A DNA stretch of 64,000 nucleotides. Origin: Thermoplasmata archaeon. Its GTDB lineage: Archaea > Thermoplasmatota > Thermoplasmata > Lutacidiplasmatales > UBA184. The stretch spans positions 1-64,000 of the forward strand of contig DASPVQ010000013.1 in NCBI GenBank assembly GCA_035622275.1. The letters are read 5' to 3'. The notes below the pieces were generated by a model. It had not been told where the DNA came from. It searched no databases and saw nothing but the letters and a program-made list of their open reading frames with translations. Below are positions 11,418-45,157 of the stretch, piece after piece. Position numbers and translations under genes: made by a program. Numbering within the stretch: the first letter of the stretch is position 1; every line of letters starts with the position of its first letter.

Positions 11418-11452
11418 GCGACTCCTCCGGGAACGCGATGGGCCCGGGGGGA

Positions 11453-11490
11453 CGCCCGGAGCGGCTCCGCGGCACGCGCGGGGCGGCTCG
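11453..11490 (-). other. T-loop intron (position 59/60) of tRNA-Lys
   Basis: 38-base insert between TTCGAA and TCCCCC of the T-arm. The boundary is ambiguous by one base (C or T at tRNA position 60). It can form an inner hairpin CCGCG-CGTGC-CGCGG and an outer GAGC/GCTC pairing. A canonical bulge-helix-bulge could not be confirmed by eye. Confidence 0.8.
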
Positions 11491-11529
11491 TTCGAACCCC
11501 CGACCAACTGGTTAAAAGCCAGCTGCTCT

Positions 11530-11559
11530 TTGTAGGGCCGGCGGGAGCGCCGCGCGGCC
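11530..11559 (-). other. D-loop intron of tRNA-Lys
   Basis: About 30 extra bases between AGCTAGGTT and AGAGC in the D-arm; exact ends are uncertain by 1-3 bases. The insert folds through GGCCG/CGGCC and an inner GGCG-CTCC-CGCC hairpin, which would bring both exon ends together. TAG in the 5' exon can pair with CTA near the 3' end, leaving short bulges, reminiscent of a relaxed bulge-helix-bulge. Confidence 0.75.
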
Positions 11560-11613
11560 AACCTAGCTGAGCTACGGGCCCGATCCCGTTCCGGCCCGGG
11601 CCGACCCGGCCGC

Positions 11614-39951: not shown

Positions 39952-40503
39952 CTAGCGTCCGGGTTCGTCGAGGCGCCACTCCCGGAACCCCCGGCCGCCC
40001 GAGGCGCGGCGGACCTCGCCCACGACACCGTCCCAGCGGACCGGGCTCGGCAGCGCTCCGGACTCGAGCGCGTCGAGCACCCGTCGGAAGCGGGCCCGCA
40101 GCTCGACGAACGGATCGGGCTCGCCCGGCCGTGCCCAGGCCCGCGGCGCCCGCAGGATGCGCAGCGCGTCGCCCTCGGTCCACCAGAGGCCGACCGGCGC
40201 GGCCCGTCCGTCGCGCGTGAGCGCCTCGAGCGCCCGCGCGGTGCGCTCGGAGGCGACGACGACCGCGACCCAGTCGCCCCAGGCCCGCCGCCGCAGCGCC
40301 TGCGCCAGGACCGCGCGGCCGTCCGCGACCTTTGCCTCGACCAGGCCGACCTCGTCCGCGCGCCGGGCGACCAGGTCGAAGTAGTCGCGGCCGTCCGGGT
40401 CGACCCACACCCGGAACCCCTCTTGTTCGAGGTGGCGCCGGGCGGCATCGACGAGCGACGCCTCGGCGCGGCGGCGCCCGCGGCCCGTGCGGCCGGGGCT
40501 CAC
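39952..40503 (-). CDS. Predicted PD-(D/E)XK nuclease coupled to mutL
   Basis: 183 residues. A helix with conserved Glu (SLVDAARRHLEQEGF), a catalytic-type Asp in GRDYFDLVARR, and the GLVEAKVADGRAVLAQAL segment, which supplies E-x-K and a downstream Gln, form the PD-(D/E)XK active-site pattern in correct order and spacing. The rest (about 100-183) is Arg/Trp-rich and not assigned. A GTG start overlaps the mutL stop, so it is the third gene of a mutS-mutL operon. It may serve as the nicking or excision nuclease of mismatch repair; this is inferred from context. The chance that it is unrelated housekeeping remains. Confidence 0.75.
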   Translation of the reverse strand: MSPGRTGRGRRRAEASLVDAARRHLEQEGFRVWVDPDGRDYFDLVARRADEVGLVEAKVADGRAVLAQALRRRAWGDWVAVVVASERTARALEALTRDGRAAPVGLWWTEGDALRILRAPRAWARPGEPDPFVELRARFRRVLDALESGALPSPVRWDGVVGEVRRASGGRGFREWRLDEPGR

Positions 40504-42230
40504 GCGCCGGACCTCAGGAACCATCGGTCGAGGCGCGCGCGGGGCAGCGCAAGGAAGATCGGGCGGCCGTGCGGGCAGGAACCGGCGCGGCCCGGCTCGG
40601 CGTCGAGCGCGGCGAGCACGGCCCCCATCGTCGCCGGTTCGATCTCGTCGCCGGCCCGGATCGCGGCATGGCAGGCGATCGTCGCGGCACGCCGCTCGGC
40701 CGCCCCGGGCCCGACCCCCGCGGAAACGCCATCGGCGAGCTCGTCGAGCAGGCCGGCGAGCGCCGCGGCCGCCGCGCGAACGACACGGTAGCTGGGCACG
40801 GCGCGCACGAGCGCAGCCTCCGGCCCGAAGCCCTCGACGTCGAACCCCGCGGCGGTCACGGCCTCGGACTCCGCGGCGAGCGTCGCGCGCTCGAGCGCGG
40901 TCAGCGTCACCGCGACCGGGGCGACCAGCTGCTGGCGGGCGAGCCGCCCGTCGCGCCGCAGCTCGTCGAAGAGCAAGCGCTCGCTGGCGGCGTGCTGGTC
41001 GACGAGCACGAGTCCACCGTCGCGGAGCGCGACCCAGTAGAGCCGATCCACGCAGCCGAGCAGTTCCCAGCGGGCCGGCGCGGCCACGAGGGCGGGTTCC
41101 GAGCGCCCCGCGCTCACGTCGAGCCGGGCCTGGACGAGGGACGATCGGGCGGCGGTCAAGGGAGGGGGCGGCATCCGTGCCCGCCCGGCGGGGCTCGGCC
41201 GGCCGAGCGGCGCCTCCGACGGGGCCGGCGCCTCGATCAGCGCCTCCCGGACGCGGACGCGCAGCGCGTCGAGGAGCTCGCGCTCGCGGGCGAAGCGCAC
41301 CTCCCGCTTGGTCGGATGGACGTTGACATCCACCCCGTCGCGACCGATCGTGAACGCGAGCACCCCGACGGGGAATCGGGCGCGCGGCATCGAGTCGCCG
41401 TAGGCGGCGCGCACGGCCTGTGGGATCGAACGCGAGATCACCGCGCGGCCGTTCACGGACAGGTAGAGCCCGGTCGAGGTCGCCGCGCCGCTCGCCGGCG
41501 CCCCGAGGCACCCCTCGATCCGGCCTCCGGGGACCGGCGCGTCAAGGGCCATCGCGCCGCGCGCCGCTTCCGGCCCCAGCACGCGCGCCGCCGCATCCGT
41601 AAGCCGCACGCTGGCCGGGTAGACCGCGAGCTCCAGGTCCCCGGTGCTCACCCGCAGCGCGACCGAGGGCCGGGCGAGGTAGACCCGGGCGAGCGTCCGC
41701 ACGATCTCGAGCTGCTCGGCCGCGGGGCTCTTGAGGAACTTGCGACGGGCCGGCGTGCGGTAGAACAGGTCGGCGACCTCCACGGTCGTCCCGGGGGCGC
41801 GGGGCGCCTGGAAGCGGCCGGCGACCTCGCCGCCCTCGATCCGGATCCCGTGGCCGACCTCCTCGCCGGCGGGCCGAGACAGCAGGCGCACGCGGGCGAC
41901 CGAGGCGATCGAGGCGAGCGCCTCGCCGCGGAAGCCGAGGGTGGCGATGGCGTCGATCGGCCCGTCGGGGGCGAGCTTGCTGGTCGCGTGTCGCTCGACG
42001 GCGAGCCCGAGCTCCTCCGGCGGGATCCCCTCGCCATCGTCCTCGACGACGATCCGCTCGAGTCCACCACCGTCGAGGCGAACGCTCACGCGCTGGGCGC
42101 CCGCGTCGATCGCGTTCTCCACGAGCTCCTTGGCGACCGAGGCCGGCCGCTCGACGACCTCGCCCGCCGCGATCCGCTCGATCGTGCGGGGTTCCAGCCG
42201 GCGGATGGGCCGCCGTCCGCCCGCGCTCAC
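40500..42230 (-). CDS. mutL: DNA mismatch repair protein MutL
   Basis: 576 residues. The GHKL ATPase domain has RTIERIAAGEVVERPASVAKELVENAIDAG (the Glu and Asn of motif I lie in ELVENAIDAG), DDGEGI and TLGFRGEALASIASV. The C-terminal domain contains DQHAASERLLFDE, near the endonuclease motif DQHA-x2-E-x4-E with the last Glu changed to Asp, plus ACHAAIRAGD and CPHGRP, all typical of nicking MutL. GTG start overlapping the mutS stop replaces a longer frame that runs into mutS. MutSL systems are patchy in archaea and usually of bacterial origin. Confidence 0.94.
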   Translation of the reverse strand: MSAGGRRPIRRLEPRTIERIAAGEVVERPASVAKELVENAIDAGAQRVSVRLDGGGLERIVVEDDGEGIPPEELGLAVERHATSKLAPDGPIDAIATLGFRGEALASIASVARVRLLSRPAGEEVGHGIRIEGGEVAGRFQAPRAPGTTVEVADLFYRTPARRKFLKSPAAEQLEIVRTLARVYLARPSVALRVSTGDLELAVYPASVRLTDAAARVLGPEAARGAMALDAPVPGGRIEGCLGAPASGAATSTGLYLSVNGRAVISRSIPQAVRAAYGDSMPRARFPVGVLAFTIGRDGVDVNVHPTKREVRFARERELLDALRVRVREALIEAPAPSEAPLGRPSPAGRARMPPPPLTAARSSLVQARLDVSAGRSEPALVAAPARWELLGCVDRLYWVALRDGGLVLVDQHAASERLLFDELRRDGRLARQQLVAPVAVTLTALERATLAAESEAVTAAGFDVEGFGPEAALVRAVPSYRVVRAAAAALAGLLDELADGVSAGVGPGAAERRAATIACHAAIRAGDEIEPATMGAVLAALDAEPGRAGSCPHGRPIFLALPRARLDRWFLRSGA

Positions 42231-44857
42231 GGTCCGCGCGGCTCCGCCGCATCGGCCGCGCGGACCTTCGCGCGCAGCTCCGCGAGCGTCCGGTGCGCCT
42301 CGAGCGGCGTCATCCGCTCCAGATCGGCGCCGCGCAGGGCGTCGCGGATCGGATCCGCCGCGGCCGGCGCGTCCCCGAGCAGCACCGCCTGTGTGTAGCG
42401 CGGACCGCGGCCGCGGCCCCCCCGCGCGGGCGCCGGTCCGATCCCTTCTCGCTCGAGCTCGCGCAGCAGCCGCTCGGCCTCGCGCAGGACGCCGTCCGGC
42501 ACCCCGGCCAGCTTCGCGACGTGGACGCCGTAGCTGCGGTCGGTGCTCCCCGGCACGAGGCGGTGCAGGAAGACGACGCCGTCGGGCCCCTCCCGGACCG
42601 CGAGGTGGGCGTTGCGCGCCCCGGCGAGCCCGCCGATGAGGTCGGTCAGCTGATGGTAGTGCGTCGCGAGGATGCAGCGCGCCCGCGTCGTGTCGTTCAG
42701 GTGCCGCAGCGTCGCCCAAGCGATCGCGAGCCCGTCGAAGGTGCTCGTGCCCCGGCCGACCTCGTCGAGGAGCACGAGCGAGCGGGGGTCCGCGGCCCGC
42801 AGGATCTCCGCGACCTCGCTCATCTCGACCATGAAGCTCGACTTGCCCCGACCGATCTCGTCCGTGAAGCCCATGCGCGTGAACAGCTGGCGGACGAGGC
42901 CGATCCGCGCGAACTTCGCCGGCACGAACGAGCCCGCCTGGGCGAGGACCACGAGCAGCCCGACCTGGCGCATGTAGGTCGACTTGCCGCTCATGTTGGG
43001 ACCGGTCAGCACGAGCAGCCGGTCCCCTTCCCCGTCGAGCTCGACGTCGTTCGGCACGAAGCCGGCGCCGAGGCCCCGGTCGAGCACGGGGTGGCGCCCG
43101 TCCCGCACGACGAGCGCCGTCGAGCCGTCGACCGTCGGGCGGACGTAGCCGCGGCCCGCGGCGACGTGCGCGAAGGTCCCGAGCGCGTCGAGCTCGCCGA
43201 CGGCCCGGGCGAGCCGGTAGATCGTCCCGACGTGCCGGTCGACGTCCGCGAGGAACGCCTCCCAGCCCGCGGCCTCGGCCGTCCGCGCGCTCTCCCGCGC
43301 CTGGAGCACCCGACGCGCGAGATCGTCGAGCGCCTCGGAGGTGAACCGCTCCGCCTGCGCCACCGTCTGGCGCCGATGGAAGTGGGCGGGGACCCGGGCG
43401 AGATGCGGCCGGGTCACCTCGAAGTAGTAGCCGAATACCTGGTTGTAGCCGAGCTTCAGGCCCTTGATGCCCGTCGCCTGTTGCTCGGTCCGCTCGAGCG
43501 CTGCGAGCGCGTCGAGCGCAGCCTGCTCCTTCGCCCGCTCGCGGTCGACCTCGGGGACGTGACCGGTCCGGAAGAGGCCGCCGGCCTCCTCGCTGGCGGG
43601 CAGCACCTCGGGGAGCGCGCGGTCGAGGACCGCCCGTAGCTCGGCCGGTGGGACGAGCTCGGCGGCGAGGCGGCCGAGACGGCCGGTGCTCGGCAGACCC
43701 GTCAGCGGACCGGCCAGCGCGGCGACGGCCTCCAGGCCTCCGCGGAGCGTGCCCAGCTCCGGGGGCCGGACCCGACGGCCGGCGACCCGCGACGCGATCC
43801 GCGCGAGATCGCCGACGCGCGCGAGGACGGCGCGGATCTCCTCGAGGGCGGCGGGGCGGTCGACGAGCGCCGCGACCGCCTCCTGGCGTTCGCGGATCGC
43901 CTCGACCTCGGCGAGCGGGTTCGTCAGCCAGAACTCGAGCGTCCGTCGGCCGGCGGCGGTGACCGACTCGTCCCAGGCGCCGAGCAGCGTTGCGCCCTTT
44001 GGATCGTCCGGGTTCATCGGGCGGCGGATCTCAAGGTGTCGCAGCGTCGTCGCGTCGAGGACGAGCCGACGTCCGCCCGCCCCCCGGTCGACCAGCGTCA
44101 GGTGGGGCAGCAGGCGCGGCTGGGTGACGCTGAGGTAGGCCGCGAGCCGCCGGTCCGCCTCGAGCGTCGAGGCGGGGGCCGATCCGGCCCGGGGCAGGGA
44201 GACCGGGAGCTCCCCCTCCGCGAGCGGAGGGGGAGCGGGCTCGATCCGCGCGCCGGGGAACTCTCGGCGCAGCGCCCCGGCGAGCGCCGCGCTGCGGAGA
44301 TCGCCGGGCGCCGAGAAGAGGACCTCGCGCGGCTGGAACGGCGCGACCGAGGACAGCAGGCCCTCGGGTCCCGGGCCGTCCGCCGCCCCGTGGAACCACT
44401 CGCCCGTCGTGATGTCGACGGCCGCGAACGCCCCGGCCTCCCGGGGGGGATCGACGACGATCGCGAGAAAGCTGTGGTCCGGTCCGCCGAGGAGCCGGTC
44501 CTCGACGACCGTGCCGGGCGTCACGACGCGCGTGACCTCGCGACGTACGAGGCCCTTGGAGAAGCGGGCGTCCTCGACCTGGTCGCAGACCGCGACCTTG
44601 TAGCCGCGTCGCACGAGCCGGCCCAGGTAGGACTCCACGGCGTGGTAGGGGACCCCGGCCATCGGGGTCCGCTCGCCGTGGGCGTCCGGTGCCCGGGCGG
44701 TCAGCACGACGTCGAGCTCCCGGGAGAGCAGGCGCGCGTCATCGCCGAACGTCTCGTAGAAGTCGCCGACCCGGAACAGGACGAGGTGGCCCGGAAAGCG
44801 AGCCCGCACCCCCTCGTACTGCTCCATCAGCGGCGTCGGGACGCTCGCCTCGGGCAT
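42227..44857 (-). CDS. mutS: DNA mismatch repair protein MutS
   Basis: 876 residues. The mismatch-reading motif VLFRVGDFYETFGDD (Phe-x-Glu) is at residues about 27-41 and the ABC-type ATPase has TGPNMSGKSTYMRQ and LLDEVGRGTSTFDGLAIAW, followed by ATHYHQLTDL. It recognises mismatches and recruits MutL. The ATG at 44857 is chosen because a TATA box (ATTATATC, 44890-44883) lies 30 bases upstream, giving a leaderless mRNA; a longer start at 44908 would run into tRNA-Ser. First gene of the mutS-mutL-nuclease operon. Confidence 0.96.
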   Translation of the reverse strand: MPEASVPTPLMEQYEGVRARFPGHLVLFRVGDFYETFGDDARLLSRELDVVLTARAPDAHGERTPMAGVPYHAVESYLGRLVRRGYKVAVCDQVEDARFSKGLVRREVTRVVTPGTVVEDRLLGGPDHSFLAIVVDPPREAGAFAAVDITTGEWFHGAADGPGPEGLLSSVAPFQPREVLFSAPGDLRSAALAGALRREFPGARIEPAPPPLAEGELPVSLPRAGSAPASTLEADRRLAAYLSVTQPRLLPHLTLVDRGAGGRRLVLDATTLRHLEIRRPMNPDDPKGATLLGAWDESVTAAGRRTLEFWLTNPLAEVEAIRERQEAVAALVDRPAALEEIRAVLARVGDLARIASRVAGRRVRPPELGTLRGGLEAVAALAGPLTGLPSTGRLGRLAAELVPPAELRAVLDRALPEVLPASEEAGGLFRTGHVPEVDRERAKEQAALDALAALERTEQQATGIKGLKLGYNQVFGYYFEVTRPHLARVPAHFHRRQTVAQAERFTSEALDDLARRVLQARESARTAEAAGWEAFLADVDRHVGTIYRLARAVGELDALGTFAHVAAGRGYVRPTVDGSTALVVRDGRHPVLDRGLGAGFVPNDVELDGEGDRLLVLTGPNMSGKSTYMRQVGLLVVLAQAGSFVPAKFARIGLVRQLFTRMGFTDEIGRGKSSFMVEMSEVAEILRAADPRSLVLLDEVGRGTSTFDGLAIAWATLRHLNDTTRARCILATHYHQLTDLIGGLAGARNAHLAVREGPDGVVFLHRLVPGSTDRSYGVHVAKLAGVPDGVLREAERLLRELEREGIGPAPARGGRGRGPRYTQAVLLGDAPAAADPIRDALRGADLERMTPLEAHRTLAELRAKVRAADAAEPRGP

Positions 44858-44882
44858 GGGGACCGCGGGGAGCGGTCCGCGA

Positions 44883-44890
44883 GATATAAT
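44883..44890 (-). promoter_or_regulatory. TATA box of the mutS operon
   Basis: The minus strand reads ATTATATC, centred 30 bases before the mutS ATG and just after the 3' end of tRNA-Ser. It is the only AT-rich element in this GC-rich gap. Confidence 0.7.
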
Positions 44891-44907
44891 GGCGCGGCGG
44901 GGCGCCA

Positions 44908-44991
44908 CGCTGAGGGGGAGATTCGAACTCCCGTGGCGGAATCGCCACCAGCTTTCAAGGCTGGCGCCTTGCCGGACTAGGCTACCTCAGC
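44908..44991 (-). tRNA. tRNA-Ser(UGA)
   Basis: Acceptor strands GCTGAGG and CCTCAGC pair fully, with discriminator G and no encoded CCA. The anticodon arm CCAGC-CTTGAAA-GCTGG gives UGA. A long variable arm with TGGCG/CGCCA marks a class II tRNA. The T-arm GGGAG-TTCGAAT-CTCCC is uninterrupted, in contrast to tRNA-Lys and tRNA-Gly nearby. GGGTTTATCC about 30-35 bases upstream is a likely TATA element. Confidence 0.96.
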
Positions 44992-45056
44992 GCATCCGGC
45001 CCGAGCGGGGCTCCCGAGGATAAACCCTCGGATTCGAGCCCGCGGCCGGCGTCGGA

Positions 45057-45157
45057 TGCAGGTGCCGGGAGATCCGCGACAGGTCGTGGGGGCCCGTCGA
45101 TTCGAACCCGGGTGGTCAGCTTGGAGGGCTGACATCCTACCACTAGATTACACCTGC
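45057..45157 (-). tRNA. tRNA-Gly(UCC) with a T-loop intron
   Basis: Acceptor strands GCAGGTG (45157-45151) and CACCTGC (45064-45058) pair fully; discriminator A at 45057, no CCA. The anticodon arm TCAGC-CCTCCAA-GCTGA gives UCC. The T-arm 5' half CCGGG-TTCGAAT is separated from its partner CCCGG by 30 extra bases. Removing 45070-45099 yields a normal 71-nt tRNA with the T-arm CCGGG-TTCGAAT-CCCGG. The insert lies at the same place as the T-loop insert in tRNA-Lys. A CATTAAC element about 40 bases upstream may be its TATA box. Confidence 0.93.
45070..45099 (-). other. T-loop intron (position 59/60) of tRNA-Gly
   Basis: 30-base insert in the T-loop; the boundary is ambiguous by one base because T occurs at both ends. 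The intron stretch CGGG near its start could pair with CCCG of the 3' exon, as expected for a relaxed bulge-helix-bulge, but this was only judged by eye. It shares no obvious sequence with the tRNA-Lys introns. Confidence 0.8.

Follow-up and report, generated by a model that had tools for sequence, protein, structure and literature searches.

Introns at non-canonical positions of archaeal tRNA genes have reportedly been described by Marck and Grosjean and by Sugahara et al. They are reported almost exclusively from Crenarchaeota, with further cases in Thaum-, Nano- and Korarchaeota and in three methanogens, at scattered positions (PMC3218864). The T-loop junction 59/60 is on the published list of such positions, where it is rare (PMC4090602). 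Canonical introns have the first two bases of the anticodon inside the central helix of the BHB motif and are cut after position 37 (PMC4090602). About 8% of euryarchaeal tRNA genes are interrupted (PMC4090602). According to reviews, euryarchaea with an alpha4 or alpha2 EndA have few tRNA introns, all of them canonical (PMC4090602), and scattered introns have co-evolved with loop-bearing enzymes (PMC12397907). A 2010 study, to the extent that it is described in PMC4033280, found similar introns in different tRNA species of a single genome, and a 31-nt T-arm intron is known from the tRNA-Sec of Lokiarchaeota (Mariotti 2016, as cited in PMC9499178).

The introns described here come from a soil-dwelling Thermoplasmata archaeon of the order Lutacidiplasmatales, which was itself described from AcS/SubAcS-type material (PMC9287336). 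Like the known non-canonical archaeal introns, they are of BHB type, occupy the same position, have a similar length and occur several to a genome; they differ in belonging to Thermoplasmatota, in that a single position predominates (14 of 23 introns), and in mostly forming strict BHB motifs. With the canonical 37/38 intron they share a 5-bp stem, a 7-nt loop cut after its sixth nucleotide, a 4-nt central helix and 3-nt bulges, but they sit on the T-arm, whose exon half hardly varies from isotype to isotype and does not contain the anticodon. As far as the account in PMC4033280 goes, that system also has similar introns across the tRNA species of one genome; it belongs to a different phylum, whereas here the site is the T-loop and the likely reason for the similarity, a near-invariant exon partner, is visible. 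The Lokiarchaeota intron, as it is quoted, is similar in length and arm, but affects a single tRNA in another phylum. A literature search, which is not proof of absence, returned no report of tRNA introns at 59/60 in Lutacidiplasmatales or Thermoplasmatota. As far as the literature found shows, what is new is the phylum, the scale, the dominance of a single site and the lack of a loop in the enzyme, whereas the kind of intron was already known. Phylum-wide scale and enzyme type both contradict current reviews: on the euryarchaeal side, an entire phylum combines introns at one precise spot with a loop-less enzyme. Since a reason for the 59/60 position can be read from the sequence, the siting and spread of tRNA introns and the needs of EndA become directly testable.

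The tRNA-Gly(UCC) insert and the tRNA genes of the genome

The window, by which we mean the whole 64,000-nucleotide stretch of DNA analysed, contains an archaeal 16S gene and three tRNA genes, only one of which is reported by a standard run of ARAGORN. The tRNA-Gly(UCC) gene (45057-45157, minus strand) reads GCAGGTG..CCGGG TTCGAA / TCGACGGGCCCCCACGACCTGTCGCGGATC / T CCCGG CACCTGC A on its own strand. Exon 1 (45101-45157, minus) ends in TTCGAA at position 59, exon 2 (45057-45070, minus) starts at T60 and includes the discriminator A, and the 30 nt between them (45071-45100, minus) are laid out as a strict BHB intron. With the insert removed, all 12 acceptor and T-stem pairs form (7/7 and 5/5), and ARAGORN, which finds no tRNA in the unspliced gene, recognises tRNA-Gly(tcc). 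The unspliced gene scores 22.7 bits against the Rfam family, whose cut-off is 29. The initial annotation, made from the letters of the sequence, had a 30-base insert splitting TTCGAA from T-CCCGG at 59/60; sequence, pairing and ARAGORN agree with it, and the insert looks like a real, removable intron. It lies at the junction of T-loop nucleotides 6 and 7, and so away from the canonical 37/38 site. A group I, group II or other self-splicing intron was ruled out, since 30 nt compare with a catalytic core of hundreds of nucleotides; an Rfam scan of the window returned no ribozyme matches. Sub-cut-off Rfam matches to BjrC68 and sR45 in the window were taken as chance.

The same T-loop position had been proposed as the split point of tRNA-Lys, and this holds. 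The tRNA-Lys(UUU) gene (11439-11581, minus) contains two introns: one of 38 nt at 59/60 (11453-11490, minus), with the central helix UUCG/CGGG, and one of 31 nt in the D-loop (11530-11560, minus), where exon CUAG stands opposite intron CUAC in a relaxed motif; the annotation makes no mention of the latter. It is unrecognised unspliced, and is read as tRNA-Lys(ttt) after splicing. The exact restoration of two tRNAs upon insert removal is not chance. The tRNA-Ser(UGA) gene (44907-44992, minus), 65 bases from tRNA-Gly, is uninterrupted, as the annotation had it. This pair of tRNA genes is adjoined by mutL and mutS (40500-44908, minus), genes that are more typical of bacteria. The D-loop intron of tRNA-Lys is also found in the tRNA-Lys of other families of the class (L139, L183, L193), where the double D-loop and 59/60 arrangement of tRNA-Lys(UUU) recurs; because of this recurrence, the double arrangement may be ancestral.

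The genome is a 1.73-Mb draft in 29 contigs, 97% complete. Its tRNA genes were sought with RF00005 at a lowered threshold, with a model (R1) made from ten of its own T-loop introns, and in further passes. This yielded 45 recognisable tRNA genes, a count that is perhaps low as Glu-TTC and Pro-GGG were not found. There are 23 introns in 21 of these 45 genes, and 19 of the introns are non-canonical. The 59/60 junction is interrupted in 14 genes, about one third of the total: Arg-TCT, Arg-TCG, Asn, Asp, Glu-CTC, Gln-CTG, Gly-TCC, His, Ala-GGC, Ser-GCT, Ser-GGA, Ser-CGA, Lys-TTT and Leu-TAG. The annotation had predicted many more such cases in the genome, and 12 further tRNA genes indeed have an insert at this position; listing insert positions here and in relatives, the check it proposed, gives a cluster at 59/60. 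It was the plain Rfam tRNA family, blind to introns at this site, that first revealed twelve of the 14 genes; the other two, His and Leu-TAG, were detected through R1. Standard tRNA finding misses genes of this kind, many of them below the Rfam cut-off, and the genomes then look short of tRNAs. Canonical-type introns occur in four genes (Met, Tyr, Leu-TAA and Trp). That of tRNA-Trp (L039) is long and has box C/D-like motifs, as is usual in archaea. Five D-loop introns, read by eye, are in Lys-TTT, initiator Met (L033), Arg-GCG (L035), Pro-TGG (L294) and Leu-TAG (L295); in the two that were closely examined, Lys and initiator Met, the motif is relaxed and the D-stem side has unpaired bases.

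Could these genes be decayed pseudogenes or assembly artefacts? The draft state of the genome, with its 29 contigs and 97% completeness, leaves some room for this, but the exons are fully paired, no intact second copy was found, and orthologues with diverged introns at the same position exist in more than 100 genomes, so that the chance of it is negligible. For Asp, Asn and His, the genome search found only the interrupted gene. It is also extremely improbable that mature tRNA retains the insert as a lengthened T-arm: contact between the T-loop and D-loop would be broken in 14 isoacceptors, sole copies included, and both the strict BHB register and the confinement of variability to the intron point to removal.

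Anatomy of the T-arm motif

In tRNA-Gly, the T-stem CCGGG/CCCGG is the outer helix of the BHB, UUCG/CGGA is its central helix, and AA|U and UC|U are the bulges. The intron's own stem, CGACGGG/CCTGTCG, has 5/5 pairs in the strict register. We compared this layout with a set of 146 unique introns from 60 genomes and 23 families, in which T54-T55-C56-R57 stand opposite intron bases -3 to -6. The central helix has three or four of its four pairs in 145 of the 146, and C56 faces a G in 144. Of 127 introns, 99% form at least three central pairs in register; a shift by one base lowers this to 72%, and most of the slid registers give 6-29%. Pairs 54-56 are part of the search model and are therefore partly ascertained outside this genome, where they carry less weight; the pair at base 57 is absent from the model. 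Here G57 is faced by C in 60 cases and A in 9 (69 of 74), while A57 is faced by G in 43 and T in 26 (69 of 72), a covariation with a Fisher p of 1.7e-31. Counting each family and isotype once, in the first 127 introns, leaves p at 2e-12. The search model likewise held no pairs in the region of the inner stem, which starts after one bulge base on the 5' side and after two bulge bases plus U60 on the 3' side. At least four of five pairs form in the strict register in 96 of 122 introns, compared with 26 or fewer when the register is slid. Judged by its pairing, the 59/60 motif is an hBHBh', the strict form, with the T-stem as its base. Where tRNAs of the archaeon's own family have A57, the motif is mostly not perfectly strict: in 39 of 43 an A-G mismatch takes the place of the fourth central pair, leaving three pairs and a purine mismatch.

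This anatomy can be laid over that of the anticodon arm. In the canonical loop, nucleotides 1-4 pair, nucleotides 5-6 form a bulge, the cut falls before nucleotide 7, and the stem has 5 bp. In the T-arm loop, nucleotides 1-4 are U54-R57, nucleotides 5-6 are A58-A59, nucleotide 7 is U60, and the stem again has 5 bp. By analogy, we infer that the two sites are geometrically the same and that this sameness is the cause of the T-arm site. The T-arm would thus imitate an anticodon arm, with a 5-bp stem and a 7-nt loop broken between nucleotides 6 and 7 (59|60, corresponding to 37|38). The T-stem would serve as outer helix and the intron's hairpin as inner helix, U54-U55-C56-R57 would form the central helix with intron bases -6 to -3, and A58-A59|N and NN|U60 would be the bulges. 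EndA would then cut out the intron, and RtcB would ligate the exons. We put the probability that these are anticodon-arm-like T-arm introns at 59/60, removed by EndA and closed by RtcB, at roughly 0.87; splicing in the cell, EndA as the enzyme, the ligation and the route of spread are deduced from sequence. If the T-arm site equals the anticodon-arm site in geometry, this would account for the single hot spot at 59/60, and no special recognition of the T-arm would be required. It had been suggested that the splicing enzyme recognises the T-arm: the T-stem and T-loop do appear to supply the exon half of an ordinary BHB, but a separate act of recognition is unneeded. Because the T-loop is nearly invariant, one intron design would fit any tRNA, and many isotypes could be affected. 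Against this reading stand the A-G mismatches just described and the five D-loop introns of the same genome, which are relaxed where examined and are left unexplained by an imitation of the anticodon arm.

EndA and the T-arm as a possible docking site

The genome has one gene for RtcB and one for EndA, with no second EndA gene. EndA is encoded by a single ORF of 354 residues and has two units, with the catalytic triad Tyr/His/Lys in the second. The three catalytic residues and the bulge-binding Arg are invariant across 29 EndA relatives. Relatives of this EndA in named records are Thermoplasmata MAGs, including UBA184 and AcS/SubAcS bins. By sequence alignment, the CSL/ASL loop is absent: YGSRVGSRLELSLIE has the same length as the A. 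fulgidus segment YGSEKGDLVTLSLIE, whereas the Aeropyrum enzyme has an insert there. On this evidence, the enzyme is alpha'2-like. For the EndA of a close relative (L043), structure prediction (pLDDT 93) gives a fold whose best matches are the structures from Methanopyrus (5X89; TM-scores 0.86/0.90) and A. fulgidus (2GJW; 0.79/0.90). The enzyme resembles those of Archaeoglobus fulgidus (2GJW), Thermoplasma acidophilum (2OHC) and Methanopyrus kandleri (5X89) in having two units, the catalytic Tyr/His/Lys in the second, the same predicted fold and no CSL/ASL loop. It differs from the A. fulgidus enzyme in being about 50 residues longer and in having a conserved basic segment in its N-terminal unit. 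It serves a genome full of non-canonical introns, while the rating given to the enzymes of A. fulgidus and T. acidophilum is "narrow" (PMC6379350).

The basic segment, PRGG..KTPS(R/K)..SER, is conserved in the 29 aligned EndAs. In the enzyme of the close relative (L043:2338-3399, residues about 108-129), it lies at the place taken by the active-site His in the catalytic unit. A relaxed EndA of broad specificity, acting through this segment and favouring 59/60 only secondarily, would offer a different explanation of the introns. The segment is missing in A. fulgidus, in short Thermoplasmatota EndAs and in family f15, whose tRNAs were all intact as far as seen; the same genome has both D-loop introns and A-G mismatches; and Methanopyrus EndA, the best structural match (TM 0.86/0.90), is rated "constrained broad" (PMC6379350). 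However, family f49 has 59/60 introns without the segment, and f26 has the segment, yet only intact tRNAs were seen in it. The CSL/ASL site has no loop, and most 59/60 motifs are strict, making a broad enzyme unneeded. We therefore consider a broad enzyme possible but rather unlikely, and given the imperfect correlation in f49 and f26, the segment was rejected as the main cause of the introns. A narrow enzyme could cleave strict T-arm motifs. Some tolerance is suggested by the D-loop introns, as those examined have an internal loop on their outer side.

Returning to the imitation of the anticodon arm, we lean, with reservations, towards a further step: in Thermoplasmatota the T-arm may offer a loop-less alpha'2-like EndA a second arm on which to dock, whatever the isotype. 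A portable intron suited to the near-invariant T-loop of any tRNA would then have spread to as many as a third of the tRNA genes and be spliced through a strict BHB modelled on the anticodon arm. Were this true, the rule that an alpha'2 enzyme means canonical introns only would be wrong as stated.

Distribution and spread

Matches to R1 were counted at E <= 1e-10; the best intact tRNA of this genome reaches 1.5e-9, so its intact tRNAs are excluded. All 103 genomes of the family (7 genera) have such matches, 3-13 each. There are fewer in two other families of the order, and up to ten per genome in family f35, which belongs to another class. Once matches had been fetched and read, 59/60 introns were found in 23 families of the phylum, usually one to a few per genome; where a search covered more than 40 genomes the filters were stricter, and the counts are lower bounds. 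Representatives of the matches in f15, f19 and f26 proved to be intact tRNAs. ARAGORN recognised 138 of the 142 fetched genes after splicing in silico, against 51 unspliced; among these 142, 15 loci split by the automatic procedure were neighbouring intact tRNAs, and later counts leave them out. The lineage-wide system foreseen in the initial annotation is thus borne out by 103 of 103 family genomes and 23 families of the phylum.

In one genome of another class (G357), near-identical T-loop introns of 36-42 nt occupy tRNA-Ala, tRNA-Arg and tRNA-Asp (L220, L221, L275). Those of Arg-CCT and Asp-GTC are identical at 34 of 36 positions, as against 51 of 68 in the exons; that of Ala-TGC is 33/36 identical to the shared one and has a 6-base insertion. 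The mature tRNAs of these three isotypes share 48-52 of 68-72 aligned positions. As near-identical introns thus sit in unlike tRNAs, the intron can be taken to have moved between T-loops, and the alignments are a direct trace of this movement in that genome. Recent exchange was not seen within the archaeon's own family: orthologous introns resemble each other (mean z 1.35), and those of different isotypes in one genome (0.3) are no more alike than chance. Because these introns resemble their orthologues and not one another, the spread there would be old and inheritance vertical. An intron end of the type N-G-R-R-N-N would fit all isotypes and permit spread from tRNA to tRNA, either by reverse splicing with recombination or by DNA exchange.

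The near-identical inserts in three isotypes of G357 would also suit a hot spot at the DNA level, with mobile elements or integrases targeting the GTTCRAAT of tRNA genes and leaving inserts as tolerated relics; the 3' ends of tRNA genes are common integration sites. Yet the junctions always restore the exact tRNA, the insert's 3' end is paired to the exon and changes in step with base 57, the inserts are too short to encode anything (13-46 nt), the sole Asp, Asn and His genes found carry them, and most tRNAs with a similar T-loop are empty. Such an origin is very unlikely. An integration preference for GTTCGAAT had been put forward as well. It gains something from the movement between T-loops in one relative, but it is unneeded, as the constant feature is an RNA structure and similar T-loops are uninterrupted; with 2 sites in the window against 0.7 expected, the sequence itself is not unusual. 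In family f8, each of the three near-complete genomes read has a single 59/60 intron, in tRNA-Arg(UCU) (L184, L189, L191).
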